The notes below the pieces were generated by a model. It worked only from the letters and a program-made list of their open reading frames with translations. It was not told where the DNA came from and searched no databases. A program made the position numbers and the translations under genes. Shown here one piece after another: positions 944-22,863 of a stretch of 24,863 nt of DNA (within the stretch, counting starts at the first letter, position 1; the number at the start of each line of letters is the position of its first letter). The DNA lies in the IMG/VR virus record IMGVR_UViG_3300035698_031449, positions 1-24,863 of that record; one strand, 5' to 3'. This DNA comes from a virus.

Positions 944-2103
944 ACAAGAACCTTTTTATATCGGTCAAGTATATCTTTGGCTTCTTTAGGTATTGGGCCT
1001 TTTTCAAAAATTGTCCTGAGACCAGTTGATCCACTAGCTCCAATATTATAGAAGTCGACGCCAAATACAGAGTTCTTTGCTTTTTCGAAAACGTGTTGGA
1101 TTATAATTTTTATAGCGAGTTTAAGATCTAGAGGCATATCAGCAGAAGCATAACCAGATGAATAGTCTACAAATACATTTCTGAATCCTTTTGGAAATCT
1201 CGTAGCAGCGACTAGCTGACCTCTGTCATAATCAACTTGTATATCTGAATCACCCTCATCAGGTAATGACAGATAAACTATTTTGCTATTTATACAGCTT
1301 TTCGCTGAATCTGTTATCATATCTGTAGACTTGAAAGAGCTATAAGTTGAACTAGATACAGTAGCAGACCAACTATTGCCTAAAGCATTAACAGCTGCTA
1401 CGACTGTTGCTATCGTAGCATATGTAGCAAAAAGGACTGTTTCATCTGCTGTACCGTCTAGGACTAATCTTAATCCAGTCGATTTTACAGACGCTGACGC
1501 TGAAGAACCAGTATTTGTATTCGTTATTTCTATAGCGTTGATTATGCCTACAGCTACTCTATCAACATTTATTACAGGATACTGAAGAAGATTAATTACC
1601 CTATAGCCTTTTCCGCTGTATCTCTCAAGAGTGTGAGTTGTTTCTTCAAATGTTCTTTTACAATAGCTGCTTATATACTCTTCCGTTTCAAGATGGATAG
1701 TGCTTGCTAAATCCGTTGGATCGCTAGCAGCGTTATTACTCGTTATCGTTTGGGCAGCAGCGTGATCTGCACTAAACCCTAATGTGAAACCTCCATCGCT
1801 ACCTGCGTGAGTATATGCTATAGTTTTTCCTACTGTAGCATCTAATGTGAATTTATAGGTTGTAGCTGAATAGGTTACGGCAAATGTTATTATGCTACCT
1901 GTTAATGTAGTGTCAGCATTCATAGCTGTTTCTAGCGCTGTAGCTAGCGTATCACCGTCATAAGTCCCATCAGAAATTGTTACAGTAGATGGCCCGCCTT
2001 CATCGCTGGTTAATACCATTTCATTATTACCGGCATTAATTTCGAAATATCCGGCATCGACTCCGATAAAGCTTAATACTTCAGAAGTAGATACAATCGT
2101 CAT
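940..2103 (-). CDS. Head-tail connector (gp6-like) with beta-rich insertions
   Basis: This 387-residue protein has a split connector core. A helix-rich segment at about 140-185 (YISSYCKRTFE ... INLLQYPVINVDRV) is the hallmark of HK97 gp6 / phiE125 gp8-like head completion proteins: a Y-x-x-x-Y-C-x-R-x-F start followed by an L-x-x-x-P-V turn. It resumes near residue 310 (VFVDYSSGYASADMPLDLK) and ends in the usual C-terminal helices. Family members are normally about 100-200 residues. Here residues 22-125 form an N-terminal Thr/Ser/Ala-rich beta domain (GTYDGDTLATAL ... TLGFSADHA) of a kind that recurs in phage structural proteins, and residues 200-285 form a second one. The protein should form the ring under the portal that closes the filled head. 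The ATG at 2103 follows a GGGGA ribosome site. Upstream lie a hairpin and a repeated 25-bp element. Confidence 0.75.
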   Translation of the reverse strand: MTIVSTSEVLSFIGVDAGYFEINAGNNEMVLTSDEGGPSTVTISDGTYDGDTLATALETAMNADTTLTGSIITFAVTYSATTYKFTLDATVGKTIAYTHAGSDGGFTLGFSADHAAAQTITSNNAASDPTDLASTIHLETEEYISSYCKRTFEETTHTLERYSGKGYRVINLLQYPVINVDRVAVGIINAIEITNTNTGSSASASVKSTGLRLVLDGTADETVLFATYATIATVVAAVNALGNSWSATVSSSTYSSFKSTDMITDSAKSCINSKIVYLSLPDEGDSDIQVDYDRGQLVAATRFPKGFRNVFVDYSSGYASADMPLDLKLAIKIIIQHVFEKAKNSVFGVDFYNIGASGSTGLRTIFEKGPIPKEAKDILDRYKKVLV

Positions 2104-2139
2104 TTATCTTCCCCTATCCCCTTATATCCGTCTAATCTC

Positions 2140-2164
2140 TATTGGCTAATGTAGGGCTATTACA
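2140..2164 (+). repeat. 25-bp intergenic repeat, copy A
   Basis: The sequence TATTGGCTAATGTAGGGCTA, continuing to TTACA, matches the element at 22816-22840 at 23 of 25 positions, in the same orientation. Both copies lie in short non-coding gaps. It may be a binding site or promoter element; its function is unknown. Confidence 0.6.
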
Positions 2165-2198
2165 ATTCGTTGATATTAGCACAAAAGCCTATCTTAAA

Positions 2199-2228
2199 GA
2201 ATGGCAACAGAATTACCCGTTGCCATTC
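2199..2228 (-). terminator. Hairpin after decoration-like gene
   Basis: A perfect 10-bp inverted repeat, GAATGGCAAC and GTTGCCATTC, encloses a 10-base loop. On the minus strand it lies about 25 bases after the stop of the 2252-2863 gene and is followed by TTTAAGATAGGCTTTT, a weak and interrupted T tract. It may be a partial terminator or an mRNA-stabilising hairpin that sets the high-copy virion gene apart from the connector gene downstream. Confidence 0.6.
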
Positions 2229-2251
2229 AGGTTTTAAAAGAACTAATATGC

Positions 2252-2863
2252 TTATAACCCTGTTGGTACTTCTTTCCAGGTCAACGCTAAATTCACGTTA
2301 ACACCTGCTGCTCCTAATGCACCCATTACGCAAGTCGTCCCAGGAGCAAATCCAAATGCGCCTTTGATATCACCAGAGATAACCTCAGCAGCTACAGTAT
2401 TGATTGCTGCCGTATTATGAAATAGTGGCCACGCAAGTACAGGAGCAAGGATTGTTGCTATACTGTAAGCAGGGCATGCGCCAGCAGTCAAGCCAGTACT
2501 GGCCGTCAATAATGTTTTTCCAGATAATGGAGCTGCAGTCACAGTCGTTGGTACAGTCAACTGAGTCCCAACTGCTAGAACAACACCGGTCATAGCAGCT
2601 GAAGTTGCGTAAACCTGAACACTCCATAAATAAGGAATAAGGTTGACACCACTACCAACTGGATTGTGAATAATTAATCCGATTGCTGATGTGGCGGTAT
2701 AAAGGGCAACTTCCATGTCTAGGGCGTTAGCGAAAAACATTTCACCGCCCTGCGTAGAATCCTGATAGTTGTTGCCACCAACGATAAGACCGCCAAGTTG
2801 ATCGGCTCTTAGTGGATTCGTTCCTGTCGATGCTGCAGTATTTCTTCCAATTTTTGCAAACAT
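2252..2863 (-). CDS. Putative virion structural/decoration protein
   Basis: A 203-residue protein rich in Ala, Thr, Val and Gly, with very few charged residues after residue 60, consistent with an all-beta capsid-surface or tail protein. Visible features include an N-terminal GGLIVGGNNYQDSTQGG segment and repeated T-x-T-x-T/AAG stretches. It has no signal peptide and no enzyme motif. It lies between two small virion-cluster genes and the head-tail connector on the minus strand, is preceded by an AGGAGG ribosome site, and is followed by a strong hairpin, all as expected for an abundant structural protein. No family was recognised with certainty. A head decoration protein or head fibre is the best guess from context and composition. 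Confidence 0.5.
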   Translation of the reverse strand: MFAKIGRNTAASTGTNPLRADQLGGLIVGGNNYQDSTQGGEMFFANALDMEVALYTATSAIGLIIHNPVGSGVNLIPYLWSVQVYATSAAMTGVVLAVGTQLTVPTTVTAAPLSGKTLLTASTGLTAGACPAYSIATILAPVLAWPLFHNTAAINTVAAEVISGDIKGAFGFAPGTTCVMGALGAAGVNVNLALTWKEVPTGL

Positions 2864-2893
2864 TTTACATCCTCCTTCTGATTCTAATTCTGA

Positions 2894-3097
2894 TTACGAT
2901 AACATTTCAGCTTGTTTGATTGCTCGCGCCATTCGCAGATCAATTGTCCACCCACCTGCAAAACGAACAAACTCGTTACCATTGTCAACGGCATGAAACA
3001 TTGTACCTGATGGATATTTATCAGAGTCTGTTAATTCGTCAAGATCTGCTAATACACCTTGGAAATTCTTGATAGTGAAAACTTGTTCAAGTGCCAT
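2894..3097 (-). CDS. Small virion-cluster protein, unknown
   Basis: A 67-residue protein with a strong ribosome site (AAGGAGGTGG) eight bases before the ATG. The middle reads YPSGTMFHAVDNGNEFVRFAGGW, a pattern (proline-glycine turn, short strand, Asp-Asn-Gly turn, strand, glycine-tryptophan end) often seen in small phage proteins next to head genes, which describe a two- or three-strand beta fold. The C-terminus is a short helix. It is co-directional with the neighbouring structural genes and sits between the 78-residue basic-tailed protein and the decoration-like protein. No function is assigned. The good ribosome site, coding-like composition and position support it as real. Confidence 0.6.
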   Translation of the reverse strand: MALEQVFTIKNFQGVLADLDELTDSDKYPSGTMFHAVDNGNEFVRFAGGWTIDLRMARAIKQAEMLS

Positions 3098-3118
3098 ACA
3101 AATCCACCTCCTTATGCC

Positions 3119-3355
3119 TTACTTCTTGCCTTTCCTTACAACCTTGGGCCTTTTAAGCTTATCTGGTTTCTCTGCCTTTTTAGGCTTTTCCGGTTGGTGT
3201 TTATTTTTAAGCTTGAGAGCATAAGCAGCTAGTCCTTCAAGCCTAACTATAACATGTGAAAAACGTGCTATTTCACCGTCAGCATATCTCTCAGCATCGT
3301 CTCTGATTTTATCAGCTATAGCAACCAGATCTTTAGTTTCCTGTACAATCGACAT
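3119..3355 (-). CDS. Small protein with helical body and basic Lys/Pro tail
   Basis: A 78-residue protein. The frame is open upstream to an ATG at 3379 inside the previous gene, but an AGGGGG ribosome site sits just before two adjacent ATGs at 3358 and 3355. The second has the better spacing and is used here. Residues 1-50 look like one or two amphipathic helices (ETKDLVAIADKIRDDAERYA). The last 27 residues are almost all Lys, Pro, Glu and Arg (KPKKAEKPDKLKRPKVV), a disordered basic tail that could bind nucleic acid or a charged capsid surface. It has no recognised family. Its place among virion genes suggests a minor structural or assembly role. Confidence 0.55.
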   Translation of the reverse strand: MSIVQETKDLVAIADKIRDDAERYADGEIARFSHVIVRLEGLAAYALKLKNKHQPEKPKKAEKPDKLKRPKVVRKGKK

Positions 3356-3365
3356 CATAATCCCC

Positions 3366-3755
3366 CTATTCAACTTCACCTATCTTGACTGCTGGGTTCC
3401 CTCCCCATATTTCACAGGATGGGACATCTTTCGTAACTATCGAGCCAGCAGCTATCACTGAATAATCACCTATATTCTTACAAGTATTCATTATCTGAGC
3501 ATTCACGCCTATGAATGTGTATTCCCCTATTCGCGTTGGCCAAGCAATCGGTTTAGGTAGCATGTATATCCATTTTTTCTTATTAAACCTATGCGTATGG
3601 GTATGGACATAAACACCTGAGCTTATTACAGCTTCCTCTCCAATTATCACCTTACTTCCAGTGACATCTATGAAAGGCCAAGGTTCTCTACCAACATGGG
3701 AATTAGCACCTTCAAAAACAACATCTTCTTTTTGACCTAAGAATGTCATTCTCAT
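3366..3755 (-). CDS. Left-handed beta-helix (hexapeptide) acyltransferase
   Basis: A 129-residue protein with the hexapeptide-repeat pattern of O-acetyltransferases of the maltose/NodL/WcaF type. It has successive I-G-x-x-x-x-I turns (VIIGEEAVISSGVYVHTHTH; IGEYTFIGVNAQIM; IGDYSVIAAGSIVTKDVP) and the closing WGGNPAVKIGE, which matches the family's G-x-P-A-k-x-I end. The catalytic His of the family probably lies in the HTHTHRF stretch. The expected reaction is transfer of an acetyl group from acetyl-CoA to a sugar or similar hydroxyl. It overlaps the upstream glycosyltransferase gene by one base (TAATG), so the two are coupled and probably act on the same glycan. The length is short for the family but covers the whole helix. 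Confidence 0.82.
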   Translation of the reverse strand: MRMTFLGQKEDVVFEGANSHVGREPWPFIDVTGSKVIIGEEAVISSGVYVHTHTHRFNKKKWIYMLPKPIAWPTRIGEYTFIGVNAQIMNTCKNIGDYSVIAAGSIVTKDVPSCEIWGGNPAVKIGEVE

Positions 3756-4513
3756 TATACTGTTTCCCTACCACGATAAATGCCTTTCTCATCTATAAGC
3801 CTTAGATCGACCGTCTTGCTTTCATCTGACGGTTTGTCTGCGAAGTCAGAAAATCTCTCAGAAAACGTATCATCTATAGCGAATGTGCTTAAATGCCTCA
3901 CCTTAATAGTCGTATCGACCCAACATTTAACGCCAGCTTCAGTCTTTAATGAAAGGCAAAATCTTGTGTCCATACACGGTATCCTACCCATAGTAGGCAG
4001 AGAATATGCTTCTTTGAACCAAGGCTTTTCAATAGCTAAAAGGCAATCGACTGGGAACATCAAAACGCCTGAGCCTATCATATCGATCTCTTGTAAATCG
4101 CCATCTTTTGGATCAATTACGTCTGCATCAGAGGCTTCTGGCCCTCTAAGTTTCCAAGCCATATGCTGAAAAGGCTTCATGTTCTGCTTCGGTATATGGC
4201 CTCTTGTTGGGACTAGCGCTGAAATAACATCACACCCATCTTCCTCAACCCTCGCTATCAATCTCGGTATCATATCTATTGGATGCAACTGATCTGAACC
4301 GATTATCAGTATGTGGGATGCACCAAACTCAATTGCCTGATCGCAAATATGGATATGACGTTTCGCTGGGCACCAACCACGTCCTTGAAAAACTTTTGAG
4401 CTAGCTGGCCGTTCAAGATTGACCAAATTCTGAGCAAACGGTGTCCATATGAACGGACTGTCCCATGGCCACCCAACAGCCAGCTTCTCAACTTTCCTTG
4501 TTACTTTAATCAT
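3755..4513 (-). CDS. GT-A-like glycosyltransferase
   Basis: A 252-residue protein resembling family-2-like GT-A glycosyltransferases of phages. It has a helix-strand HIHICDQAIEFGASHILIIG leading to a metal-binding-like SDQLHP (D74, H77), then a strand CDVISALVPTRG, an acceptor-side IGSGVLMFPVDCL, and a C-terminal MDTRFCLSLKTEAGVKCWVD ... VRHLS segment. The last corresponds to the catalytic acidic residue plus the His found at the end of the GT-A core. It lacks membrane segments and is probably cytoplasmic. A GGGG ribosome site precedes the ATG at 4513. Coupling to the acyltransferase gene and the presence of a second glycosyltransferase at 1-943 suggest joint synthesis of a modified glycan. 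Donor and acceptor are unknown. Confidence 0.75.
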   Translation of the reverse strand: MIKVTRKVEKLAVGWPWDSPFIWTPFAQNLVNLERPASSKVFQGRGWCPAKRHIHICDQAIEFGASHILIIGSDQLHPIDMIPRLIARVEEDGCDVISALVPTRGHIPKQNMKPFQHMAWKLRGPEASDADVIDPKDGDLQEIDMIGSGVLMFPVDCLLAIEKPWFKEAYSLPTMGRIPCMDTRFCLSLKTEAGVKCWVDTTIKVRHLSTFAIDDTFSERFSDFADKPSDESKTVDLRLIDEKGIYRGRETV

Positions 4514-4543
4514 TATAATAGCCCCTTTTTGTTAATATTTATA

Positions 4544-5491
4544 TTACGGTGCAAGCGTTACAATCGGATACTGATAAGCCTGTGTAGCAGCTCCGGCAGC
4601 TCTCACAGTACCAATCATTAAACTACCCCAGTCGTATAGATCACCAACCGTAGCAGCCAATGTGTAAGATAACAAGTTGTCGACAACTCCAGTTGAAGCG
4701 GAATTGAAATCAATTACCAGCCCTGCTGCTGCAACAGGCATAATTGTAACATTCTTTATGACCAGGTCTTCCATCAGAACAGCATTCTGATAAAAAACTG
4801 GACCATCGATATCGGTAGCTGCTGTAAAAGTCCCAAGTATGCCATCGATTAGCCAATCGTTAGAGCCACCTTCCCATACGATGATGCTATCTGGATTAGC
4901 AGCAGTCCCAACAATCGTCAAGTCCTTTAGCGTACCACGATGAGCAGTAGCAGCAACAGTGATACAGGTTAAATTTTTAGCGCCCATCTGAATCAGGCAA
5001 TTCTCCATGGTAAAATCGTGACCGCCAGCTGCTACACCAACATTTATAATAGCACCAGAACCACAAGTACCAGTAAGGATATTGATATTTTTGATAGTCA
5101 CATTAGCAACAGTTATATCGAAAGCATCTACTCCAGCGCCAGCATAAGTCGGCGTAAAGGAAGGTCGATTGGTTCCGTTGCCCATTCCGATGATAGATAC
5201 ACCAATTTTATTTACCGTAATTGCTGCGGTTGGTGCTTCAGCGTGACCAGGCATAAGAAAAATCATATCCCCGTTTGATGCGGTACAAGCCGCTAAAGCA
5301 GAAGTAAGGGTAAGGAATGGTGCGTCTGGATTTCTTCCGAATGAAGTTGTCGTACCACCTGTAGTTGTCGCGCCTGAGTCAACATAATAAATGTTCCCTG
5401 TGGTCAGCGTCTCATTCACAACAGTAAAGACGCCACCGCTCTGTTTACGAGAAAACAAAGCCGATCTCTGAGTTGAATCTGTTAATGCCAT
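4544..5491 (-). CDS. Right-handed beta-helix virion protein (tail-spike/decoration type)
   Basis: A 315-residue protein. An in-frame ATG lies further out at 5518, but the AAGGAG ribosome site eight bases before the ATG at 5491 fixes the start (MALTDST). The region after residue 30 reads IYYVDSG ... FGRNPDAPFLTLTSALAAC then GDMIFLMPGHAE, the usual entry to pectate-lyase-like right-handed beta-helix proteins of phages. It is followed by successive strand repeats (VSIIGMGNG, VTIKNINILTG, FTMENCLIQMG, GTLKDLTIVG). The C-terminus is Ala/Gly-rich. No obvious glycanase acid pair can be picked out by eye. It probably sits on the outside of the head or tail and binds or degrades surface polysaccharide, or serves as decoration. 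Its neighbours are glycan-related genes. Confidence 0.7.
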   Translation of the reverse strand: MALTDSTQRSALFSRKQSGGVFTVVNETLTTGNIYYVDSGATTTGGTTTSFGRNPDAPFLTLTSALAACTASNGDMIFLMPGHAEAPTAAITVNKIGVSIIGMGNGTNRPSFTPTYAGAGVDAFDITVANVTIKNINILTGTCGSGAIINVGVAAGGHDFTMENCLIQMGAKNLTCITVAATAHRGTLKDLTIVGTAANPDSIIVWEGGSNDWLIDGILGTFTAATDIDGPVFYQNAVLMEDLVIKNVTIMPVAAAGLVIDFNSASTGVVDNLLSYTLAATVGDLYDWGSLMIGTVRAAGAATQAYQYPIVTLAP

Positions 5492-5544
5492 TTTACATTC
5501 TCCTTTTGCAGGGTTCAAACCTGCTGTGAAAGGTGGCCCCTATT

Positions 5545-5766
5545 TTATACTCTCTTACTCCTAACGAGATCTTCAGTCTTAATCTCTTCAGGCTTATTAA
5601 AGGCTTCTTTCTGATTCTTAGTTAATACAGCAGACTTTCTATTTAAAAGGTTTTGAGCTGCATAACTATTAATTTTGACTACGGAACCTTTTGGGTGCCC
5701 TAGCCATTCTGATTTAAGTTTCACCTCAACAAATGTTACTTTCCCTGGTGTTTTTACGCTTATCAC
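5545..5766 (-). CDS. Small virion-cluster protein, unknown
   Basis: A 73-residue protein starting at a GTG (5766) behind an AAGGGGG ribosome site. The core, FVEVKLKSEWLGHPKGSVVKI followed by NSYAAQNLLNRKSAVL, has the 'K-G-x-x-V-x-V ... A-x-x-L-x-x-x-x-A' layout seen in many small phage proteins encoded near head genes: a short beta barrel-like entry and a helix that places a residue-number-like loop. The C-terminal 20 residues are charged. Function is unknown; a capsid-associated or assembly role is inferred from location only. Confidence 0.55.
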   Translation of the reverse strand: MISVKTPGKVTFVEVKLKSEWLGHPKGSVVKINSYAAQNLLNRKSAVLTKNQKEAFNKPEEIKTEDLVRSKRV

Positions 5767-5779
5767 GTTGCCCCCTTAA

Positions 5780-6646
5780 TTACAAATCATAACCAAAATG
5801 ATTCACTCTGCTAAATTTCTTAAAAGCCTCACCCCTTACGCTCTCTTCAGCTGTTGCTAAATGATGATAAGTCTCAACTGGAGTAAACAATGGTTTATCG
5901 TTCGTAAAATGAGAATAAGTAGGATCTCCATTCTGATAAGCCCATTCGATCCATTTTCTGTGGACAGTTGCTATAGCGTGATCAGGTTGCGATCTAATGA
6001 CGTCATTTCTGACAAACCACTTGTTGACCATTGTTTCAATATAAATCTGCTCTTCTGTTACTCCCCATTCAGTACTAGCGCCGATTCTTTTTTCATATTC
6101 AGTGCAAGCCCTTTTGAGAATGACAGATACGTCTTTTCCTAGATGTCTAGTCTCATTAACTTTTTCTCTGACTATCTTATAGCATTCAATGCCTTGCTCA
6201 AGTGAATGATTATAAAAATAACCGCCATAAAGGCCGTGAACATAAGATCTTACTTCGATACCACACTTACACGGTAAACCAAGACTTTTCTCAAGATCCA
6301 ATAATGAAAAAAGCCCCAAAAGGTTCTTTGGTCTAACAACTACTTTCCAACACTGCTGACAAGCACTAGGAACAAAAGCCCTGCCTTCTGGCATAGACAT
6401 GCTAAATAGATCAAATAATACAGTATGCCATCTAGAGCAGTCGAAAAAAGCATCATGGTTAACATGGTGCCAAGGAGTTTCTACTGGTACAGATGCTTGT
6501 GTGACACATATCTTCCCATCCTCATCCCTGACTTTATAACCACCAGTCCGAAGAAGTGGCAAGAATTTAGATATGATATCATTCTTAACAACTGAATCGT
6601 AATAACTTTCACTCACCGCTTCTTCTATCTCTCTTTCTTCAATCAT
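5780..6646 (-). CDS. Unknown Cys-rich protein in the virion operon
   Basis: A 288-residue protein I do not recognise. Residues 90-160 look the most conserved: a CxxC pair (C96, C99), a hydrophobic helix, then CKC (C126, C128) followed by GIEVRSYVHGLYGGYFYN. A second dense segment, VILKRACTEYEKRIGASTEW, lies near 176-195, and His-rich turns occur near 60-64 and 258-260. The four clustered Cys residues could hold zinc or another metal. There is no signal peptide, membrane segment or known catalytic motif. The gene follows a hairpin after the decoration-like gene and precedes the beta-helix and glycan genes. It may be an enzyme acting on the virion or its glycans, but that is inference from neighbours. 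Confidence 0.6.
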   Translation of the reverse strand: MIEEREIEEAVSESYYDSVVKNDIISKFLPLLRTGGYKVRDEDGKICVTQASVPVETPWHHVNHDAFFDCSRWHTVLFDLFSMSMPEGRAFVPSACQQCWKVVVRPKNLLGLFSLLDLEKSLGLPCKCGIEVRSYVHGLYGGYFYNHSLEQGIECYKIVREKVNETRHLGKDVSVILKRACTEYEKRIGASTEWGVTEEQIYIETMVNKWFVRNDVIRSQPDHAIATVHRKWIEWAYQNGDPTYSHFTNDKPLFTPVETYHHLATAEESVRGEAFKKFSRVNHFGYDL

Positions 6647-7339: not shown

Positions 7340-8611
7340 CTATGTTCTATCATCAAGCACCACAAACGGTGAAAGCGTGTCAGCCGTAGCTTGGGGTGGA
7401 ATTAATGACGTTGGCCACCAAGGCTGACCGTCAATTCTAAACACAAACCGGAAACAAGTCTGGTCGGCATCAAACTTAAGGTGAATAGACGTATCAAATT
7501 TACCGTCTGCAGCCTGACCTGATTTCTGGCCAACAAGATACTGTGACCAATCAGCGAGTATGATATCCCCTTGATCTCCAAGCGTAGAGCAATGCTTAGA
7601 CCAAATAAGCGGAATGCCCAGGAGAGTAGCGAAAGGCGCTCCAGATATACCACCAGCAGGCATCCAAACAGGGATTCCACCAGTACCAACAGCGAGAGAC
7701 ATAGCAGCAAGCTGAGGCAGTGTATTCTGATTTGCCATAAAAATTGCGTTAGAAGTATCGTGGATGCGAGAAAACATCTTAACGATATTCTCAAACACGA
7801 TAGTATCTGCAGCCTGACCAGTCTCCTTAGTAATAGAGACTAAACAAGGAGCATTCAAAATACCCATTGGGCATCCTGCTCCTGTCCCTCGGATAAACGC
7901 CTTATTGAGATTAAAGTTGAGTCCATCTCTGAAGCCGTTACGAAGGATGTTCTCCATAGACATAGGAGAATCCTCAAGGATCTCATCAGAGGCATAAGCA
8001 AGACCTGCCATCTTTTTGAGCTCAAGGGTAATACGCCCGAACTTTGGACGTGTTTCTGTTTTAGTGGCAAGCTCATCGAGCCATTTCCACTGAATTCCAC
8101 CGTAAACAAGTCCACCAGACTCATCGAAACCATTAACATAAGGCACTTTGACCATGGTAGTTTTCATTGGAACCGAAGTGGTCCTAGGCAGAATCTCATT
8201 CATCTGCTCAACAGCGATCATAAGCTCATTTCTGAACTCAGGTGGAATAAGATACCCACCGTACTGATCTTCACCTTCAACAAGAGAGGTGCTAGAAGCT
8301 GCTTTCTGGAGCCAAGTATCAAGCTCCTTACTTACGTTGCGACCTTTACTCTTATCAGCCTTAGCAACGTGCCCACAAAAATTACTTAAGCAGGAGAACC
8401 CACCTTTTTCATCTTTGTCGATTGGTTCATCGCCAATAGTGATTCTTGGGCGAAGAGTATCGATATCGCCTACGATCTCTTTAATTTTATCGTCAACCTC
8501 ATCTTTAATACTATCCAAAGACTTGCCATGGTCTTCAAGAAGCGGTTTGACACTAGATACCACTATTTCCTTAACCTTATCTGTAAACTCTTTCTCAGTT
8601 AATCCTGCCAT
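7340..8611 (-). CDS. Major capsid protein, HK97 fold
   Basis: A 423-residue protein of the HK97 gp5-like phage capsid family. Residues 1-105 are charged and coiled-coil-like (KEIVVSSVKPLLEDHGKSL), as in the delta/scaffold domain removed during maturation. The mature part opens with the typical GGYLIPPEF at 118-126, followed by the E-loop region and the FIRGTGAGCPMGILN motif near the spine helix. The C-terminus has the A-domain segment GDIILADWSQYLVG and the closing FRIDGQPWWPTSL. Length matches the family. AAGGAG precedes the ATG. It lies just downstream of the protease-ATPase fusion gene, which probably cleaves its N-terminal domain, at a guess near residues 100-115. Confidence 0.95.
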   Translation of the reverse strand: MAGLTEKEFTDKVKEIVVSSVKPLLEDHGKSLDSIKDEVDDKIKEIVGDIDTLRPRITIGDEPIDKDEKGGFSCLSNFCGHVAKADKSKGRNVSKELDTWLQKAASSTSLVEGEDQYGGYLIPPEFRNELMIAVEQMNEILPRTTSVPMKTTMVKVPYVNGFDESGGLVYGGIQWKWLDELATKTETRPKFGRITLELKKMAGLAYASDEILEDSPMSMENILRNGFRDGLNFNLNKAFIRGTGAGCPMGILNAPCLVSITKETGQAADTIVFENIVKMFSRIHDTSNAIFMANQNTLPQLAAMSLAVGTGGIPVWMPAGGISGAPFATLLGIPLIWSKHCSTLGDQGDIILADWSQYLVGQKSGQAADGKFDTSIHLKFDADQTCFRFVFRIDGQPWWPTSLIPPQATADTLSPFVVLDDRT

Positions 8612-8697: not shown

Positions 8698-11247
8698 TTA
8701 AGATATTTTACCTCTAGCGACATCTACTCTCTCTTTAATGAACTCAACAATATTAGGATCTTTCTGGTCTCTCAGGATACCTTGAAGTGATTCTCCTATT
8801 GCCTTTGTGAGCGATACCTCATCGAAGTTAAACATCTCTTCCCTAGTAGCATCTTTTTCTTCCGTCTCATCTATTTCAATGATCGTTTCATCGATGCTAA
8901 CATCCTCTGTACCACTGTCTTTTGAATCAGCAGTTTCTACGACTTCATTTAATGCGCTAACTGCTTTATTCATAGTGTCAATAGCTTCACCTATAGCCGA
9001 TCTGGTCTTCTTAGACAAGACCTTACCGGATTTTTCATCAATTTTCGAAACAAGTTCTCCTAGCTCATCTCTCACTTCAACGAGATCTTTATCAACCTTT
9101 ACGATCTCATCTCCTACTTTGACTTCAATAACAGGAGCTAATTTCTCACCTTTTATACCAGAAATAAGCTCTCTTTGTTCGTTTATTTTATCTAGACTTT
9201 CACTAATTGCCTTATCAATAGTGAGATCCTCATCGTCTTCCATCAAAGTCCTAGCGAAAGCAACAAGCTCATACATATGTGCTCCGCTAAATCCAATAGT
9301 CTTTGTGATGAGAGGATCGATTGATTTTTCATTAATACCAGAAGCCCAAGACTTAAGCATAGCAATTCTAGTGGCGCCGTCAGGAAGATCGAAATTTAGA
9401 ACATCGTGGAATCTTCCTGGGCGATCAATTAAAGCATCTGGAAGTTCCTCAGGGTGGTTAGACGTCAATATCGTAACAAGACCTTTACTTTGGGCTATAC
9501 CATCCATCTCAGTCTTCAGAAGGTCTGTTGCCTGACCGTGAAGCCAATTATCGATATCCTCTATAAAGAGTACAGACGGAGCAAGGTCTTTAGCAAGACC
9601 AAATCCATATCCTATTCCACCCATAGCTCCGGCATAAGAAAAATCTCTTGCACTAATCCAGATGAATGTAGCGTCAGCAGAGTTCATTATAGCCCTTCCA
9701 GTCATAGTTTTTCCTGTACCTGGTGGACCCATAGCTATCATCCCTCTATTCGCAAGATCCTTTCCTTTCTTATTAAGAAGATCAGTTGTTCTGGTTATAG
9801 AATCCTTATTCTTCTTAGAAAGAAATATATGGTCAAAGCTTGTATCGCCTTTTTTAATAAAATCGCCACTCAAAGCAAAGCTTTCACCTTTGAGAAAATT
9901 ATTATCTTTTGTCCATATTTGAGTATCAGAGAATACCTTAAGTACAACATTCTTTGATTTCATAGGTGCATAAGATATTAGATTTATGCCATACCAACTC
10001 TCTTGTCTCTTGATTATAATTCTTTCACCATTCTTCTCGTAAAAGCCCATACCAGATACGAGAAAATCATTAGACTTTTCTGAATTCAGCTGGATAACTT
10101 CATAACGTGGAGGACTCTCTGATCCATCGTATAAGATATTCCTTACAGCGACCTCATCAAAATCTTCAAGAGATTTATCAAGACCTGTAAGATACGTCCC
10201 CATCATAGCAGAACCAACGCCATCGGCGCAAACAAAGATATCTCTGACTTCACACTCAAACCACTTTGACATTATATCGTACTGAGCTGTAGAAGGAGAT
10301 GCGTCATATCCGTCGATATCAAAGTCTTTGCTTAAGGAAGTGTTCCACCTTTCAGATATACCATCTACTGATTTGAACTTATAAAGAAGCGGAGCAGGGA
10401 AATCGTCAACTGGACTATCCTCTATTTCAAGTATCTCTTTCCCATATCTCTTCTCAAGTACCTTCTTAGCATCGAAAGCAGCATTCTCTTCAATAGCCTC
10501 TTCTTGATCATCGTCAAGCCAGACTGTTACCTTTTTACCAGCTTCAGTCTCTTCTGCTTCGACTGTTATGCTTTTATCTTCGATTATTTCCATAACAAAT
10601 GCTTTCTCTTCTGAGAACTTCTTTGCCTGATCACCAGTTAATATGCTCTTGCTTATAGCAAGCTGTAAAGCATCTGGATTAGACGGAACTGGAACATCGC
10701 TGTATTCAAGCAATAATGAATCAGGATAAATTCTATTCGCCCCATCTAGATCAGACTTCTCAAGGCCTAGTGCTTTGAGATCCAATCCTTCAAAATCATC
10801 TCTTTCTACAACAGAAAGCGGTATAAACCCTATACTTTTAGCCATAGGGAACCCATCTTTTCTGTACTCGTATATGTCGTTAGCTAGACTATGCTTAGCG
10901 TACTGAGTCTTTGATATAAGACCTTTTTCATCAGATTTCATCCACAGAGATTTACCAATAGGCAAAGAGCTATAATCGTGAGCAAATAGCACTACTGGGT
11001 TTTTCCTGTAATGATCAAGGATTACGCCTCCAGGAACAACAATCTCACCATCCCTGTCTACAGATTTCGTCGTTATGTAATCAACTGAAGATCTTTCACC
11101 CTTCTGGAACTTGGTATCTTCTGGCGTTATGCCTTTTCTGATGAGCTGGGCATCTTCTTCTTTAACGCCATGTTTCTCTAGCGCTTTCTTTGCCCACTCA
11201 GGCAGTCCGATGTCCTTTACCGATACTCTACGTGTAATAAGATCCAT
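8698..11247 (-). CDS. S78-like prohead protease fused to an AAA+ ATPase
   Basis: One unbroken 849-residue reading frame. Residues 50-200 form an S78/U35 prohead protease domain: TTKSVDRDGEIVVPGG at 59-74, the catalytic His in VVLFAHD (H90), the catalytic Ser in AKSIGF (S138), and an acidic residue before the VPVPSNPDAL stretch (E181). Residues 490-670 form a full AAA+ module: Walker A GPPGTGKT 507-514, Walker B VLFIEDID 559-566, sensor 1 near TSN 595-597, an arginine finger in DRPGRF 608-613, and a sensor-2 region GFSGAHMYEL 652-661, as in the FtsH/Cdc48 class. Residues 230-480 are unassigned. The last 150 residues include SKIDEKSGKVLSKKTRSAI, like the scaffold tail of other prohead proteases. 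GGAGGG precedes the ATG. It sits between portal and capsid, where the plain protease normally lies. Confidence 0.9.
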   Translation of the reverse strand: MDLITRRVSVKDIGLPEWAKKALEKHGVKEEDAQLIRKGITPEDTKFQKGERSSVDYITTKSVDRDGEIVVPGGVILDHYRKNPVVLFAHDYSSLPIGKSLWMKSDEKGLISKTQYAKHSLANDIYEYRKDGFPMAKSIGFIPLSVVERDDFEGLDLKALGLEKSDLDGANRIYPDSLLLEYSDVPVPSNPDALQLAISKSILTGDQAKKFSEEKAFVMEIIEDKSITVEAEETEAGKKVTVWLDDDQEEAIEENAAFDAKKVLEKRYGKEILEIEDSPVDDFPAPLLYKFKSVDGISERWNTSLSKDFDIDGYDASPSTAQYDIMSKWFECEVRDIFVCADGVGSAMMGTYLTGLDKSLEDFDEVAVRNILYDGSESPPRYEVIQLNSEKSNDFLVSGMGFYEKNGERIIIKRQESWYGINLISYAPMKSKNVVLKVFSDTQIWTKDNNFLKGESFALSGDFIKKGDTSFDHIFLSKKNKDSITRTTDLLNKKGKDLANRGMIAMGPPGTGKTMTGRAIMNSADATFIWISARDFSYAGAMGGIGYGFGLAKDLAPSVLFIEDIDNWLHGQATDLLKTEMDGIAQSKGLVTILTSNHPEELPDALIDRPGRFHDVLNFDLPDGATRIAMLKSWASGINEKSIDPLITKTIGFSGAHMYELVAFARTLMEDDEDLTIDKAISESLDKINEQRELISGIKGEKLAPVIEVKVGDEIVKVDKDLVEVRDELGELVSKIDEKSGKVLSKKTRSAIGEAIDTMNKAVSALNEVVETADSKDSGTEDVSIDETIIEIDETEEKDATREEMFNFDEVSLTKAIGESLQGILRDQKDPNIVEFIKERVDVARGKIS

Positions 11248-11263
11248 CTCTAACCCTCCATGG

Positions 11264-12670
11264 TTATAAACCCAATTTGCTAATAGCCATCTTCGTTATC
11301 TCGTCAGTTAATCTCGTAATATCCATCTCAGAAATTGGGATATCCCCTGTGTCTCCACCTTCACCTGCTGGTTCTACTTCTGGCCTATCGTCTAAAGGCG
11401 ACATATTATTATTGAGTATCGGTGAATCGCCCCACTCAACAGTTTCCTTATCATCAAGGACTCTTTCCATATTGATGCTACTGTAACCTGTCTTAAGGTT
11501 ACATTCTCTTTCTTTTAACTTGAATTCCTTATCTGGCGGGACAGGATCATCGAATGCTACAAATAATTTATCATCGAATTTCGGAGTTAGCTTTTCATTA
11601 AGCTTTTCTTCCATGCGAATGAGTCTAGGCTTTATCGTATCCCTCATAAAAGTAAAAGAAGCAACCTCTGCATTCGCTCTTGTAGCGTCTTTGTCATAAA
11701 GGCCTAGGGATTGCCCGTAAGCATTAACAATCTCCTCCTTTACGGCTTTGCGACCTTGCATGAAGCTAAGATCTTTAGGCGCTAGGCCATAAGGCTTATA
11801 ATGAACACCTTTTTCAAGAAGAGGTGATTTACCTACATTATCTAACCCTCTGAATGTCTGATTTATTTCTTCTTTAAGTCTTTCAAATTCATATTGACTT
11901 AATTCATTATCAGTTTCAAAAGCACCTTCAATTCTACCCATATTCCCAAAAACAAAGTTTTCATACTTGTTGATATTCTGACTAATGTTGTATGAATCCG
12001 TTACTGCTGCTAATGGCGCTTTACCATAATACATGCTCTCTGGAGAAGGAAACTTAAAATGAATAACTGATTCTTCACTGAATTCAACTTCATCGAATCC
12101 TCTAACAAAAGCATAACTCTTTATGAATTTCTCTTTATCTGGAATTATTCTCATATTCTGAGGAGGCATAGGCCATATTTCTCTTGGGACGCCTAACTTA
12201 TCCTCAACTATATACCAAAAAGCATTTCCACAAAGCTCTTGGTACAATCCCGTTAATTCGAAAAGTGAGAAATAATTCATAAAATTATTAACATTTCTCA
12301 GCATAGTCAACATAGGGTGGTCAAGAACTTCCTGTATCTCGACAGCCTTTTTAACCTGAGGAAGATTAGATAAAGAAGGATTTCCTCTCAGATATGTATC
12401 GATCTCTTTAGATATAGGTCTTACAGCGTGACTTTTTATGGCATTTCCATTTGGCTTCCCTACATAAAGTTTAAGAGGTACAGAAGCAACACTAGTAGCA
12501 TTCTTAGAAGATGCCACATACACCCAACCTCTATATGCTTTCATGAACGCAGCATAGTTATCTTTTGGCTGAAGCTTAGATCCATAAGACCAACTACGAA
12601 GGATATTCGACAGAAACTTTGAAGCATTTGGCTTTTTCTTACTTATATTTATGCCAAAAGGTAATTTCAT
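11264..12670 (-). CDS. Portal protein, HK97 type
   Basis: A 468-residue protein of the HK97-type phage portal family. It has the N-terminal helix with AFMKAYRGWVYVASSKNATSV (near 40-62), the wing segment ending in LDHPMLTMLRNVNNFMNYF, a GNAFWYIVEDKLGVP strand pair, the stem-like IPDKEKFIKSYAFV, and the clip/crown part with ELSQYEFERLKEEINQTF. The C-terminal 70 residues are acidic and Gly-rich and look flexible. It forms the dodecameric ring through which DNA enters the head. Its ATG overlaps the stop of the terminase gene by four bases (ATGA), so the two are coupled. Order terminase, portal, protease, capsid is the standard HK97-like head module. Confidence 0.93.
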   Translation of the reverse strand: MKLPFGINISKKKPNASKFLSNILRSWSYGSKLQPKDNYAAFMKAYRGWVYVASSKNATSVASVPLKLYVGKPNGNAIKSHAVRPISKEIDTYLRGNPSLSNLPQVKKAVEIQEVLDHPMLTMLRNVNNFMNYFSLFELTGLYQELCGNAFWYIVEDKLGVPREIWPMPPQNMRIIPDKEKFIKSYAFVRGFDEVEFSEESVIHFKFPSPESMYYGKAPLAAVTDSYNISQNINKYENFVFGNMGRIEGAFETDNELSQYEFERLKEEINQTFRGLDNVGKSPLLEKGVHYKPYGLAPKDLSFMQGRKAVKEEIVNAYGQSLGLYDKDATRANAEVASFTFMRDTIKPRLIRMEEKLNEKLTPKFDDKLFVAFDDPVPPDKEFKLKERECNLKTGYSSINMERVLDDKETVEWGDSPILNNNMSPLDDRPEVEPAGEGGDTGDIPISEMDITRLTDEITKMAISKLGL

Positions 12671-14406
12671 ATTAATCTTGCCTTTGGTCTACCAGGTGGT
12701 TGGGCAAAAGTTAAACATAAAGCATCGGCATCATCAGGACTTCTCCCAAGCTCTTTCCTCATCTGCTCTTTATCCATAACTTTTATTTTGCCATTAACGA
12801 TTTTGTATTCAGGAACAGATAGTTCCTCAACAAGTCTTTCATTAGGAGGTATCATCGCACCTTTATCAGTTCTAAGCCATTCTCTAACTTCCCACCAAAG
12901 CTGATCTCTTAATACACCAAATTCACCGATATCTGTTTTCTTCGTAGGCTTAGAAGCGACCATAATTCTTTGAGCGTTACAGTAGTGGACTTCCATAACA
13001 ATATCCTCAAGAACAACGCCTTCTTTCCCTTTGCATTTAGGACAATGCGTCATACTCTTTGGATCAGCGCTAGGTTCGACTATTACATGTCCGCATTCAC
13101 CGCATACAAGGCGATATGTAAGATTCATATTAGGAGCAAGACCTGCTCCAACGCCAGTAGCATCAACATTTATCACTCTAGATTCTCTTTCGTGATAAAA
13201 CAGGGAAGCTCTTTTTGCTGTTTGGTTAAGATCCATACCGTGCCAGCGTTTTATATCATCCACCCAGCCGCCATATCTAAAACATAATGTATTATGGTCT
13301 TCGCCTAAATCGGCAGCGTCTAAACCACCTATCCCTTTGACACCTACAGGTGGTTTCTTACCAAACTCTGAGACATACAAATCCCATCTAGCTCTGGCAT
13401 TATCTATCCACTCAACGTTTATAAGCTGATACATAGATTGAAGAGGATACTCACCAAGAACCATATATGCGAATTGAGGCTCTTCTATTCTCCTCCATCC
13501 TGCTTCAAGAGGTGCAAACTCATCCAATCTATCGTTTTTAGCTGTACACCCTATAAGAAAATCAGGAACTTCGAAACAAGAGTTGTCTGGCTCATCATCG
13601 TCGGATAAAGGCCTAGTCCATTCGTGTATGCGCTTTATTGTCTGACCTCTTGTTACAGCTCCCTGTATAATCTCTTTGCCTGATAAGACATTAGGATGAT
13701 CAAAAGCTCTCATGTAGATCACTGCGCATTGGCCATCTCTTATTTTCCTATAAACAGCGCCTAACCTTCTCTTGGGATTAAACATAACGAGAAGTCTAGC
13801 GAAACCACCGCTCATGCAGGATTCTATTGCTCTGTATACTTCATCTGGAATTGCGTCGCCCTCATCGAGGACGAAAAGGAGGTTTGGTGCGTGGATACCT
13901 GAAAACTTGGCTTCTCTTTCATCTATAGAGCCAGCCATAGGAATAGTGACACCCTGTATAAAGCTTTTAGGATTCTGTCCATCTTCTATATACAGTGTAT
14001 TAACTTTATCGTCTTGGAAAATAGTCGGATTGTTAACTATTTGCATTCTTATTTCACCCCAAAGCTTTGCTTTAAGGTTTCTCTCTGCTGGAGGAGCTGT
14101 AGCGAGAATAACTTGAGCGCCTCTTCTACATTTCTTGAACCATATAGCAGCGCAAGCAGCTCCATGTGTCTTTCCGACAGCATTAGCCGATACAGCAACG
14201 GATACTGGATTTACCAAGACTGATAAGAGCATCTTTTTGACATCTTCCGTAAGCTTTTGCTTAAGGACTTCTTCACAGAACTCAACAGGCTTATCAGCAT
14301 AGCTATCATAATCGACAGATGATAACATCTCTTCTACTGCTTCAAGAGTGTATCCATCGAGAATATTATCTGCTAAGACATCTACGTTTAAGCTTGAATT
14401 AATCAA
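12667..14406 (-). CDS. terL: Terminase large subunit with zinc-ribbon insertion
   Basis: A 579-residue packaging motor. ATPase domain: a Walker A-like SANAVGKT at 73-80, a Walker B LLFVLDEGD at 176-184 (D181, E182), and a coupling-motif-like MFNP at 208-211. Nuclease domain (RNase H-like): acidic residues in GLDAAD (D363), VDATGVG (D415) and the closing PDDADAL (around D558-D561). Inside the nuclease domain, residues 435-458 hold two Cys pairs (C435/C438 and C455/C458), a probable zinc ribbon not usual at this place. The start is TTG at 14406, chosen because AGGAG lies five bases upstream and no other start occurs until residue 27. It follows the small subunit gene by one base. The protein cuts concatemeric DNA and pumps it through the portal. 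Confidence 0.93.
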   Translation of the reverse strand: MINSSLNVDVLADNILDGYTLEAVEEMLSSVDYDSYADKPVEFCEEVLKQKLTEDVKKMLLSVLVNPVSVAVSANAVGKTHGAACAAIWFKKCRRGAQVILATAPPAERNLKAKLWGEIRMQIVNNPTIFQDDKVNTLYIEDGQNPKSFIQGVTIPMAGSIDEREAKFSGIHAPNLLFVLDEGDAIPDEVYRAIESCMSGGFARLLVMFNPKRRLGAVYRKIRDGQCAVIYMRAFDHPNVLSGKEIIQGAVTRGQTIKRIHEWTRPLSDDDEPDNSCFEVPDFLIGCTAKNDRLDEFAPLEAGWRRIEEPQFAYMVLGEYPLQSMYQLINVEWIDNARARWDLYVSEFGKKPPVGVKGIGGLDAADLGEDHNTLCFRYGGWVDDIKRWHGMDLNQTAKRASLFYHERESRVINVDATGVGAGLAPNMNLTYRLVCGECGHVIVEPSADPKSMTHCPKCKGKEGVVLEDIVMEVHYCNAQRIMVASKPTKKTDIGEFGVLRDQLWWEVREWLRTDKGAMIPPNERLVEELSVPEYKIVNGKIKVMDKEQMRKELGRSPDDADALCLTFAQPPGRPKARLI

Positions 14407-16030: not shown

Positions 16031-17389
16031 ATGGATTTAACTTTAGATGTAGATGATCAAGATAGGATTATGAATTTATGTATAGTCGATTCGAAATTCA
16101 TAGGTCACGTACTAAGACAAAAAATAGAACCAAGACATTTTGGATCAGAAGTAAGGCAAAAGGTCTTTAAAACGATAGCTGATTTTTACGGGAAATATAA
16201 AAGAGCACCAAGTGAAGACATTGTAACGGAAATAGAAGATAAAATAAAGAAGCGGAGAATACACGAAGAGGATGAAGGGTTATATGAACAATACCTTGTT
16301 AGCGTAATGTCCATACCCGACTTCTCGGAAAAAAGAGTCAGAGACAGACTTGAATTTTTCGTTAAAACAAGAATTATAACAAACCTATCCAACACCCTTT
16401 TAAAACTCCAAGACAGATTCGACATAGATCCTGATAAACCGCTAAACCTAATAAAAGAAGCTGCTCTTGAAGCAAATAGGGCTATAGGTAGAGAAGGGGC
16501 AACTAGTATTATGCATGATCCAATAGGAGATTTACAACAGAATTTCTTTGTTACCAAATTCGGAATAGACCCAATCGACAGACAACTAGGTGGAGGATTA
16601 AAGAGAGGTAACTATGTTATAATTCAAGCATTCACTGGTATGGGTAAGTCTTGGGCTATAAACCATCTAGGTAAAATGGCTGTTAGGTTTGGCAATACAC
16701 CTCTCGTTATACCTACTGAGATGGCTAATAGGACAGCGAGACTTAGATTCAGGATGTCCTTTACAGGACTTACTATGGATGAAGTATTTCAGAAGCCAGC
16801 TGATGTCAAGTCACAAGTAGCGAGATCTATGAACAAAGGAGCTGATATATTCCTCTTATCTGAAGAAGAAAAATCTATGAACGTTGACGAATTACCTGCT
16901 ATAATAGAAGACATAGAAATAAAGAATAACAATAAAATATCATTAGTGCTGATGGATTCCGCTGACGATATGGGCCCACCTGCTGGAAAATATAAGAGCG
17001 AAATAGAAAAGAATACGGCCATACACACATACCTTAAAAACTTTGCTAAAGATGAAGACATTTGTATTGTAAATACGGCTCAATGCCAAAGAATCGGTGA
17101 AACAAAAATGTGGCTAGGCCCTTCTAATGTTGGCGAGAATATAAACAAGTTAAGAAAAGCAACAGTAGGGATAAGCATAAACGGCTTAGTCGAAGAGAAA
17201 GAAAAATGGTATTATCGTTTATGGCTATTCAAGAATACCGATGGAGATGAAGGAGCAAAGGTGTGGGTGAAGCGTAATTTCAAGCGTGGACAATTCGTAA
17301 CGAAATATGGAGGTTGGCCAAAGAAAAAGGCTTATGATGCTATGTTAGCAAAAGAGCCAGTGATGGATAAAATAAGGAGGGACATGTAA
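16031..17389 (+). CDS. DnaB-like replicative helicase
   Basis: A 452-residue RecA-fold helicase. Residues 1-150 form an all-helical N-terminal domain of DnaB type (DRIMNLCIVDSKFIGHVL ... EPRHFGSEVRQKVF). The linker leads into the motor: FGIDPIDRQLGGGLKRGNYV before the Walker A AFTGMGKS (200-207), IPTEM as motif H1a, the Walker B SLVLMD (D309), and the H3-like CIVNTAQCQR with a Gln sensor (348-353). The closing segment KVWVKRNFKRGQF has the arginine-finger-like basic residues. It unwinds the fork as a hexamer at the start of replication and needs a primase; the Toprim protein three genes downstream is the candidate partner. It overlaps the next gene by one base (TAATG). Confidence 0.88.
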   Translation: MDLTLDVDDQDRIMNLCIVDSKFIGHVLRQKIEPRHFGSEVRQKVFKTIADFYGKYKRAPSEDIVTEIEDKIKKRRIHEEDEGLYEQYLVSVMSIPDFSEKRVRDRLEFFVKTRIITNLSNTLLKLQDRFDIDPDKPLNLIKEAALEANRAIGREGATSIMHDPIGDLQQNFFVTKFGIDPIDRQLGGGLKRGNYVIIQAFTGMGKSWAINHLGKMAVRFGNTPLVIPTEMANRTARLRFRMSFTGLTMDEVFQKPADVKSQVARSMNKGADIFLLSEEEKSMNVDELPAIIEDIEIKNNNKISLVLMDSADDMGPPAGKYKSEIEKNTAIHTYLKNFAKDEDICIVNTAQCQRIGETKMWLGPSNVGENINKLRKATVGISINGLVEEKEKWYYRLWLFKNTDGDEGAKVWVKRNFKRGQFVTKYGGWPKKKAYDAMLAKEPVMDKIRRDM

Positions 17390-17625
17390 TGAGTGAAGAA
17401 TTAGCAGCATTGCGGAAAAAATTCGAAAAGGGTCTTAATGTAAGATTATTCTTAAGTTCTGATATGTTCGCTTTGTGTATATTAAAGAATAAAGTAAGAG
17501 GTTACAGGTGTTACAGGTATTTTACACTAGACGGTGAATGGCAAGTAAGCATTGATAGGACACAAACAACTGCTGATGGAGCATTGTTCTGGGTAAACCA
17601 ATACGGAGAATATTTGTTCAGATGA
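17389..17625 (+). CDS. Small unknown protein between helicase genes
   Basis: A 78-residue protein with an AAGGAGG ribosome site. It begins one base into the helicase stop (TAATG) and overlaps the SNF2 gene by four bases (ATGA), so it is firmly part of the operon. The N-terminal 15 residues form a charged helix. The rest looks like a small beta fold (GYRCYRYFTLDGEWQVSIDR) ending with LFWVNQYGEYLF. It shows no metal-binding pattern and no known family. It may be an accessory subunit for one of its neighbours. Confidence 0.6.
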   Translation: MSEELAALRKKFEKGLNVRLFLSSDMFALCILKNKVRGYRCYRYFTLDGEWQVSIDRTQTTADGALFWVNQYGEYLFR

Positions 17626-19133
17626 GCTGGAATGATTTAAAACTCCTATCTAAGAAAGAGCTATTAGAGTTGATACCTGATAATTTCAATTTCAAGACAG
17701 ATCCTTGGACTCACCAGATAGCCACGTTCTTGGCTAATATATCGAATAATGGATTCCTAGATACTCTTGATCTTGGTACAGGGAAAACTAAAGTGTCGAT
17801 AGATACTTTCAGGTATATTAGCCTTCTGAAAGGTAGAAACACAAAAGTCTTGTACGTCTGCCTAGCTACGGCTATAGGTAAAATGGCTGATGAGGTACAT
17901 AAGCACTCAGATTTCAAAGCTATATGCCTGAATTGTGATAAAAAAGAAAAATGGAAAAGAATAGCAAGCAAAAAGCACGACTTCTTCATAATAGGCTATG
18001 AAGGCTTAAGATCTATGGTAACGAATAGAAAAGCAGTAAAGAAAAGATACTTTGATCACGACAATGATGAATTTAAAATCAAAATAACACGCAAAGAGAT
18101 AATTGATCTTAAGCTCGTTAATAAAATTAAAAAGATGGGCTTTGACGGGCTTATAGTAGATGAATCACATGTTATAAAAAACCCAGCTAGTCTTGTATTC
18201 AGAATAATCAAGAAGCTGTGTATGAATATCGATAATAGGATATTATTAACGGGCACGCCTTTCGGAAATACATTACTCGATGTATGGTCACAATACTTTA
18301 TAGTCAATAAAGGAGCTACATACGGGAAAAGCTTTTCAATATTCAGAGATTCATACTTCAAAGATGTCGGATATTTTGGAGAATCATATGTTCCAACAAC
18401 TATAGGGAAAGCGTTCATAACAGAGCACTTGTATGATTCAGCAATAAGATATTCTGAAGACGAAATAGACGATCTGCCTCCAAAAGTATTTAGAACGTTG
18501 AATTACAAGTTAAGCAAAGAGCAGAGGAGAGAATACGATAGCCTTTTAGATGATCAGATGAATGAACTCAACGTCAACATAGTCAATAAGGGGATCGGAT
18601 ACAGGCAGATAGCAAGCGGATTCATAAAAAGCTCTGATCACGTCTTCAAAAATAATCCAAAGCGGGACTTACTTTGGGAATTGATATCAGGGGTTATGAG
18701 CGACCATAAAGTTGTTGTGTTTTTCGAATACACTATGAGCAGGAAGTTAGTTGAAAAACTACTTATTAAAAAGAAAGTCAAGTTTAAGACTTTAGGCGGT
18801 GAAGTAAAAGATAAATATGAGTCATACACTACATTCCAGAACGATCCTAGCTATAGAGTATTCTTGGCTCAAATAAAATCAGGTGGATCAAGCATAGATC
18901 TTTTCGCTGCTTCATATTGCATTCACTATGAAAACGGAGGATCTGTCATAAACCACAAACAGTCTTTGAAAAGGATTCATAGAGGGGGACAAACTAAACG
19001 GTGTTTCTTCTATTCACTTATAGGTCTAGGGACTGTTGAAGTGAACATACACAAAGATTTATCGAACAACGTTGATGCTTTTACAAGAATAGTCGATGCT
19101 AAAAGCGCTGGCAAATACATAAGAGGTGAGTAA
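17622..19133 (+). CDS. SNF2-family (SF2) DNA helicase/translocase
   Basis: A 503-residue superfamily-2 ATPase with the complete motif series. Motif I is LGTGKT (51-56), motif II is the DEAH-like DESH (180-183), motif III is LTGTP (209-213), a motif IV-type strand is KVVVFFEYTMSRKLVEKL (363-380), and motifs V/VI are SGGSSIDLFAA and QSLKRIHRGGQ (447-457). The Q-x-x-x-R-x-H-R-x-G-Q ending is the Snf2/Rad54 signature. No nuclease or other added domain is seen. Phage members of this group are usually annotated as DNA helicases in replication or recombination clusters and may remodel forks or remove bound proteins. It overlaps both neighbours, forming part of one operon. Confidence 0.88.
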   Translation: MSWNDLKLLSKKELLELIPDNFNFKTDPWTHQIATFLANISNNGFLDTLDLGTGKTKVSIDTFRYISLLKGRNTKVLYVCLATAIGKMADEVHKHSDFKAICLNCDKKEKWKRIASKKHDFFIIGYEGLRSMVTNRKAVKKRYFDHDNDEFKIKITRKEIIDLKLVNKIKKMGFDGLIVDESHVIKNPASLVFRIIKKLCMNIDNRILLTGTPFGNTLLDVWSQYFIVNKGATYGKSFSIFRDSYFKDVGYFGESYVPTTIGKAFITEHLYDSAIRYSEDEIDDLPPKVFRTLNYKLSKEQRREYDSLLDDQMNELNVNIVNKGIGYRQIASGFIKSSDHVFKNNPKRDLLWELISGVMSDHKVVVFFEYTMSRKLVEKLLIKKKVKFKTLGGEVKDKYESYTTFQNDPSYRVFLAQIKSGGSSIDLFAASYCIHYENGGSVINHKQSLKRIHRGGQTKRCFFYSLIGLGTVEVNIHKDLSNNVDAFTRIVDAKSAGKYIRGE

Positions 19134-20504: not shown

Positions 20505-20505
20505 T

Positions 20506-21249: not shown

Positions 21250-21251
21250 AA

Positions 21252-22840: not shown

Positions 22841-22863
22841 GCAAATGCAAATAAGGAAAAAAT

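Follow-up and report, generated by a model that had tools for sequence, protein, structure and literature searches.

A prohead protease of uncultivated phages that carries a Bcs1/YjoB-like AAA ATPase

Introduction

Prohead proteases of the HK97 family (MEROPS S78; PF04586, TIGR01543, PHROG 80) share an H/S/E catalytic triad, a gene position between portal and capsid, and a fold like that of T4 gp21. S78 activity must wait until assembly, and the proteolysis and expansion of the procapsid are understood as ATP-free. Fusions of prohead protease and major capsid protein are also known (PHROG 617, NF045541). Other proteins, including P1 DarA/Hdf, T4 Alt and internal proteins (IPs), and the ejection proteins of SPN3US, are carried into the prohead from genes of their own, and processing by the prohead protease has been reported for DarA, Alt/IPs and SPN3US proteins. 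The internal head proteins of P1 are co-ejected, and DarA undergoes processing by the prohead protease (PMC12810830). The SPN3US protease itself has a C-terminal propeptide that it removes autocatalytically and that has been proposed to direct it into the core of the prohead (PMC7411985).

AAA+ ATPases linked to proteases are known from FtsH, Lon and PAN. In YjoB of Bacillus subtilis and mitochondrial Bcs1, a middle beta-domain and an AAA domain form one unit. Bcs1 has an N-terminal transmembrane helix, a Walker B motif of ED order and a heptameric ring. It translocates folded substrate from vestibule to vestibule (PMC12219900).

Here, we analysed a 24,863-nt stretch of viral DNA (hereafter, the window), which is a 24.9-kb IMG/VR virus record, and describe a gene in which a prohead protease and an ATPase of the Bcs1/YjoB type are combined. 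All the parts belong to known families, and the protease-AAA architecture is new.

Results and discussion

Domain organization of the fused gene

A single open frame on the minus strand (11247-8698) encodes 849 aa, with an ATG start that lies 7 nt after the Shine-Dalgarno sequence GGAGG (11255-11259, minus strand). Based on profiles and homologues, the protein comprises an S78 prohead protease, a linker, a Bcs1/YjoB-like middle domain, an AAA ATPase and an acidic C-terminal tail. The gene sits between those of the portal protein (11264-12670, minus strand; PF04860, E=2e-51) and the HK97-fold major capsid protein (7340-8611, minus strand; PF05065, E=1e-44 over residues 118-404), with the terminase large subunit upstream (12667-14406, minus strand; PHROG 2, E=4e-26), and these neighbours confirm the order of portal, fused gene and capsid that an earlier reading of the sequence only had given. 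Residues 1-117 of the capsid protein precede the Pfam domain and occupy the position of a delta-type scaffold domain.

The S78 core (residues about 50-195; 10663-11100, minus strand) contains the triad H90/S138/E181. PHROG 80 'head maturation protease' (E=8e-11) and TIGR01543 proheadase_HK97 (E=8e-9, under its equivalog cut-off) match the window protein, together spanning residues about 60-230. PF04586 reaches only E=0.009 there, below the Pfam cut-off, and about E=1e-13 in the sisters L016 and L021, which have the same gene position. The model of residues 1-230 aligned with the T4 protease gp21 (5jbl; Z 12.0, rmsd 2.9, 139 aligned residues) and, more weakly, with herpesvirus proteases (Z about 5). 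Among the relatives, the triad was conserved as H90 in 79/80, S138 in 81/81 and E181 in 82/82.

The classic AAA module (residues about 498-697; 9157-9756, minus strand; GPPGTGKT, FIEDID, TSN, RPGRFHD, SGAH) was matched by PF00004 (E=6e-19, residues 504-620) and has the set of Walker A, Walker B, sensor 1, arginine fingers (SRH) and sensor 2. The Walker A lysine, the Walker B ED (E563 D564) and the sensor-1 asparagine were each kept in 70/70 relatives and the arginine fingers in 69/69. The aromatic residue of pore loop 1 is not conserved (Y538 in 34/70; R, H, K, W or A elsewhere). Generic AAA profiles that match the window protein include FtsH and PAN. The combination of both domains in one frame, as the sequence-only reading had it, is thus upheld by PHROG 80, TIGR01543, PF00004 and the predicted gp21 fold, with a protease match present in the window protein itself. 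Both active sites are conserved within one polypeptide across 70+ distinct sequences, and since the triad and the ATPase motifs are all but invariant, both activities appear to be under selection together.

AlphaFold2 with 47 homologues predicted a protease core that disordered linkers connect to a rigid middle+AAA unit (residues 310-700, pLDDT about 96), and gave the tail as helical. The closest solved folds to the whole unit were those of YjoB (7w42; Z 20.9, aligned over residues 317-690) and Bcs1 (9gsn; Z 18.5, residues 306-693); the matches cover about 330-337 residues at 16-20% identity, and their high rmsd (7-9) indicates that the relative placement of the domains differs. Because the unit matches YjoB/Bcs1 as a whole, the 250 residues previously regarded as an unassigned part are better described as a disordered linker (196-310) followed by the middle domain of the AAA module (residues about 310-480; 9808-10320, minus strand; pLDDT about 96, with the YjoB and Bcs1 alignments). 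In its predicted fold, the unit of the window protein therefore resembles YjoB and Bcs1, with the ED order of Walker B as a further shared feature, and differs from them in being fused to a phage protease. Where Bcs1 has its transmembrane helix, the window protein has an acidic, disordered linker of low confidence before the middle domain (residues 196-309, pI 4.35; 10321-10662, minus strand; pLDDT mostly under 50); a transmembrane helix is not evident, and the linker between protease and middle domain ranges from 17 to 290 residues among relatives.

The protein ends in an acidic, helical and conserved tail (residues 714-849; 8701-9108, minus strand; core EKxGRVLSxKxR, pI 4.44). This tail is directly joined to the protease, with no AAA, in compact relatives (L172, 308 aa; L184, 292 aa; L188, 286 aa). 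Given these compact proteins, we regard the AAA part as an insertion that separates the protease from its usual C-terminal segment, in agreement with the sequence-only reading; compared with the HK97-family proteases, the window protein has about 400-500 extra residues, including the Bcs1/YjoB-like AAA, before the tail. An internal start giving a free ATPase or a free tail was rejected, as no conserved Shine-Dalgarno sequence plus start codon was found.

Relatives and gene layouts

A single-protein scan of viral contigs found no relatives. Related viruses with the fused frame were reached by using the neighbouring capsid and portal genes as seeds, and a scan with a middle+AAA alignment gave 96 viral relatives, the best 80 of which were kept. 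Over all IMG/VR loci gathered, there were 73 distinct middle+AAA frames, and 69 of them joined protease and AAA in one frame (65 S78-AAA and 4 AAA-S78-capsid), a linkage that applies to close members since only the best 80 of 96 relatives were kept. BFVD also contains Bcs1-like AAA proteins of phages that stand alone and are more distantly related. The relatives all come from uncultivated genomes, mostly fragments, and from many samples. A survey of other phages for the same domain order, which the sequence-only reading had called for, hence yielded 65 cases in IMG/VR. An assembly chimera or chance frame might be suspected in a single 24.9-kb record; with the same linkage in 73 distinct sequences on contigs from many samples, including the 65 protease-AAA and the 4 AAA-protease-capsid relatives, this explanation is vanishingly improbable and is ruled out by recurrence.

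The remaining 4/73 frames had no S78 match by the profiles used. L005 is cut at the 5' end of its contig, in L010 a one-base frameshift that looks like an error within a run of Ts leaves S78 in the frame before, and in L109 the protease is still detected by PHROG 617 (E=1e-9). L056 is a two-gene split, in which the AAA gene has its own Shine-Dalgarno sequence and ATG and starts exactly at the conserved ERWN. As this second gene starts where the middle domain begins, the middle+AAA module is self-contained.

The most surprising form of the architecture is the AAA-S78-capsid frame (L053:2693-5998, L064:968-4303, L065:4142-7354, L068:7905-11222), where the portal gene is downstream, not upstream. 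The 1102-aa frame of L053 was matched by Pfam AAA, S78 and Phage_capsid and by PHROG 617 (E=1e-143). These four frames contain the pair known from the protease/capsid fusions (PHROG 617, NF045541), with the AAA module added in front, whereas the capsid gene of the window is separate. The capsid gene lies directly downstream of the fused gene in nearly all relatives, and each layout seen (S78-AAA, AAA-S78-capsid and the two-gene split) is tied to head proteins.

A tblastn search of 50,697 phage records with three divergent members did not find the architecture; the cultured phages gave only separate S78 or AAA-only matches, such as FtsH-like genes, and no middle+AAA unit. A pattern-based scan of 84,980 species genomes found it in one small contig only. 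The sequence-only reading knew of no described example, and the searchable open-access literature (preprints not included) likewise gave no description of a prohead protease combined with an ATPase.

Distribution of the ATPase and exchange of proteases

The sample seeded with capsid, portal or protease contained 16 distinct proteins with AAA, 54 without and 8 that were cut, with the frameshifted L010 copy scored as AAA-less; that is, 54/70 uncut relatives are without the ATPase. On the protease tree, the presence of AAA changed 15-17 times by parsimony, with at least 9 changes forced by well-supported branches, when L056 (AAA as an adjacent gene) was entered as AAA-less. L004, without AAA, and L005, with AAA, have capsids that are 97.4% identical and downstream DNA that is 93.7% identical. 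Relocation of the module elsewhere on the contig was rejected as an explanation: it was found on 0/20 AAA-less contigs, with no matching AAA in 19 and a weak generic AAA in 1.

Proteases have been exchanged as well. L104 and L105 share 99.4% identity along a 9.4-kb stretch that begins in the linker (97% in the rest), and their proteases are only 27% identical; judged from this alignment, it is an in-place protease swap, with the protease form of L104 known from one contig. A similar exchange was seen between L099 and L103 (84% against 26% identity), and these comparisons indicate that the modules recombine. AAA distances followed capsid distances (partial Mantel 0.32 given protease) more than protease distances (0.06 given capsid), although the AAA part adjoins the capsid gene, and linkage alone might account for its correlation with the capsid.

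Since the AAA module is dispensable and very different proteases occur with the same AAA, we conclude that ATP does not drive head maturation itself in these phages. The suggestion of ATP-driven maturation made from the sequence only is therefore not sustained, given L004 without AAA, the 19/20 AAA-less contigs without a substitute and the exchanged proteases. The ATPase is an optional helper or a passenger of the protease.

Other inserts at the protease-tail junction

In AAA-less relatives, the protease-tail junction holds KPETTDNYHHIPVR-type domains, GARGG/HLAKHY domains or a linker alone, and no enzyme domains were found by Pfam in these non-AAA inserts. The small KPETTDNYHHIPVR-type domain was observed between protease and tail in L006, L009, L012, L014 and L043, and also in L016, L031, L186 and L205; in L009, L012, L014 and L043 it lies within the linker. 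It recurs with and without AAA and had no Pfam match in the members scanned. The VWRGVAAAMAALLGARGG...HLAKHY insert recurs at the same site in the AAA-less proteases of L021, L027, L165, L214 and L219. Separately, four very long frames (L055, L062, L067 and L090; 1286-2046 aa) have 550-1180 residues C-terminal to the AAA, in which no Pfam family scored above its cut-off.

Possible roles of the inserted ATPase

Our preferred reading, which we hold tentatively and at a little under even confidence, is that an S78/HK97-kind prohead protease with a self-contained Bcs1/YjoB-type ATPase inserted is co-assembled into the procapsid, remodels head proteins and releases itself. By analogy with the SPN3US protease propeptide, the conserved tail would target the polypeptide into the procapsid core and would carry with it anything lying between tail and protease. 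The ATPase would thereby assemble alongside the protease and the N-terminal scaffold of the capsid protein, and the flexible linkers would allow its ring to form. Using ATP, it could then hold, move or remodel capsid, scaffold or portal in their folded state, until the protease at last cuts itself and the ATPase module free. Procapsid entry, ring formation, target and release are all steps that we infer. Since Bcs1 moves folded substrate, a machine that holds, chaperones or remodels head proteins in folded form would fit the fold better than a threading unfoldase, the pore-loop aromatic of which is not conserved here. We counted in favour of an assembly helper the conserved active sites, the linkage to head proteins in every layout, the AAA-capsid distances and the YjoB/Bcs1 fold; and against it, the patchy AAA, the L004/L005 difference and the possibility that the AAA-capsid signal is linkage. 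Such lability is not what one would expect of a vital assembly step. As the module is optional, an obligatory maturation engine is disfavoured, and the two main readings are an accessory head-assembly machine and a packaged passenger.

The passenger is a serious rival, if a less favoured one. Protease and tail would be the loading vehicle, and the ATPase, freed by self-cleavage, would be ejected with the DNA into the next host, where it might act on host or defence proteins in the manner of P1 DarA/Hdf, T4 Alt and internal proteins. Those packaged proteins have separate genes, unlike the ATPase within the window protease, and the P1 precedent of co-ejected internal head proteins with a processed DarA lends the idea weight. 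The patchy presence of AAA, the other inserts taken by the junction in AAA-less relatives, a capsid that is unchanged with or without AAA (L004/L005) and proteases exchangeable under the same AAA (L104/L105, L099/L103) all point the same way. However, cargo would be expected to vary and the AAA type is always the same, none of the other inserts had a match to a known enzyme, and the AAA-S78-capsid frames would make the ATPase in capsid amounts.

Two further readings, in which the ATPase feeds or regulates the protease, are less likely than either an accessory assembly machine or a passenger. The sequence-only reading suggested a logic like that of FtsH or Lon, with the ATPase unfolding scaffold or feeding it to the protease, or remodelling the procapsid; in the feeding form, an AAA ring would unfold scaffold or capsid N-termini and pass them to the S78 sites. 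As in FtsH, Lon and PAN, AAA and protease are linked in the window protein, here with both intact in one polypeptide, and FtsH and PAN are among its generic AAA matches; nonetheless, this reading is improbable. The AAA subtype is another one, with a whole-unit fold nearest to YjoB/Bcs1 (Bcs1 moving folded substrate) and a pore-loop aromatic that is not conserved, and the flexible linker of 17-290 residues, the reversible domain order (AAA-S78-capsid frames), the optional module and the proteases swapped under an unchanged AAA also argue against it. Moreover, plain S78 enzymes work without ATP, presumably including that of the sister L004. It is also quite unlikely that ring formation serves to block the protease, or to cluster it, up to the closure of the procapsid. 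The physical tether and co-occurrence of AAA and protease, and the established need to delay S78 activity until assembly, would suit such a regulator; against this, the AAA works with very different proteases, is a separate gene in L056 and is dispensable.

If the accessory assembly machine is correct, head assembly would include an ATP-driven protein-remodelling step of a kind not known from the tailed phages studied so far. That a widespread group of uncultivated phages has a Bcs1-type ATP machine inside the assembling head, within the maturation protease or even the capsid polyprotein, with such a step in assembly, is a possibility we put forward with some reserve, short of an even chance. 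The conserved in-protease ATPase, which in four loci is part of a protease-capsid frame, would imply either an energy-driven head-assembly step or a vehicle by which the virion is loaded with a 45-kDa ATPase. Either possibility is open to direct testing, for which the natural pairs with and without AAA or with swapped proteases (L004/L005, L114/L192, L104/L105) are ready-made controls.

Genomic context

Downstream of the capsid gene, the minus-strand genes of 2-6646 probably encode head-tail proteins of a phage group not yet described; those scanned (2-940, 940-2100, 2252-2860, 3755-4510, 4544-5518 and 5780-6646) had no significant PHROG match. The sole member in the genome collection, L120, lies on a contig of 3.4 kb within a Candidatus Cloacimonadota metagenome-assembled genome (MAG), which gives a weak hint of the host. 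Beyond L120, a prophage scan of genome contigs returned generic AAA proteins of archaea that lack both the middle domain and a protease. The other half of the window has a replication module oriented oppositely to the fused gene (16031-23454, plus strand), with a DnaB-like helicase, a DNA helicase (PHROG 62), a primase, a DNA methyltransferase, an ATP-dependent DNA ligase and an exonuclease. A tRNA-Ser (GCT) was found at 23928-24013 within this replication half.
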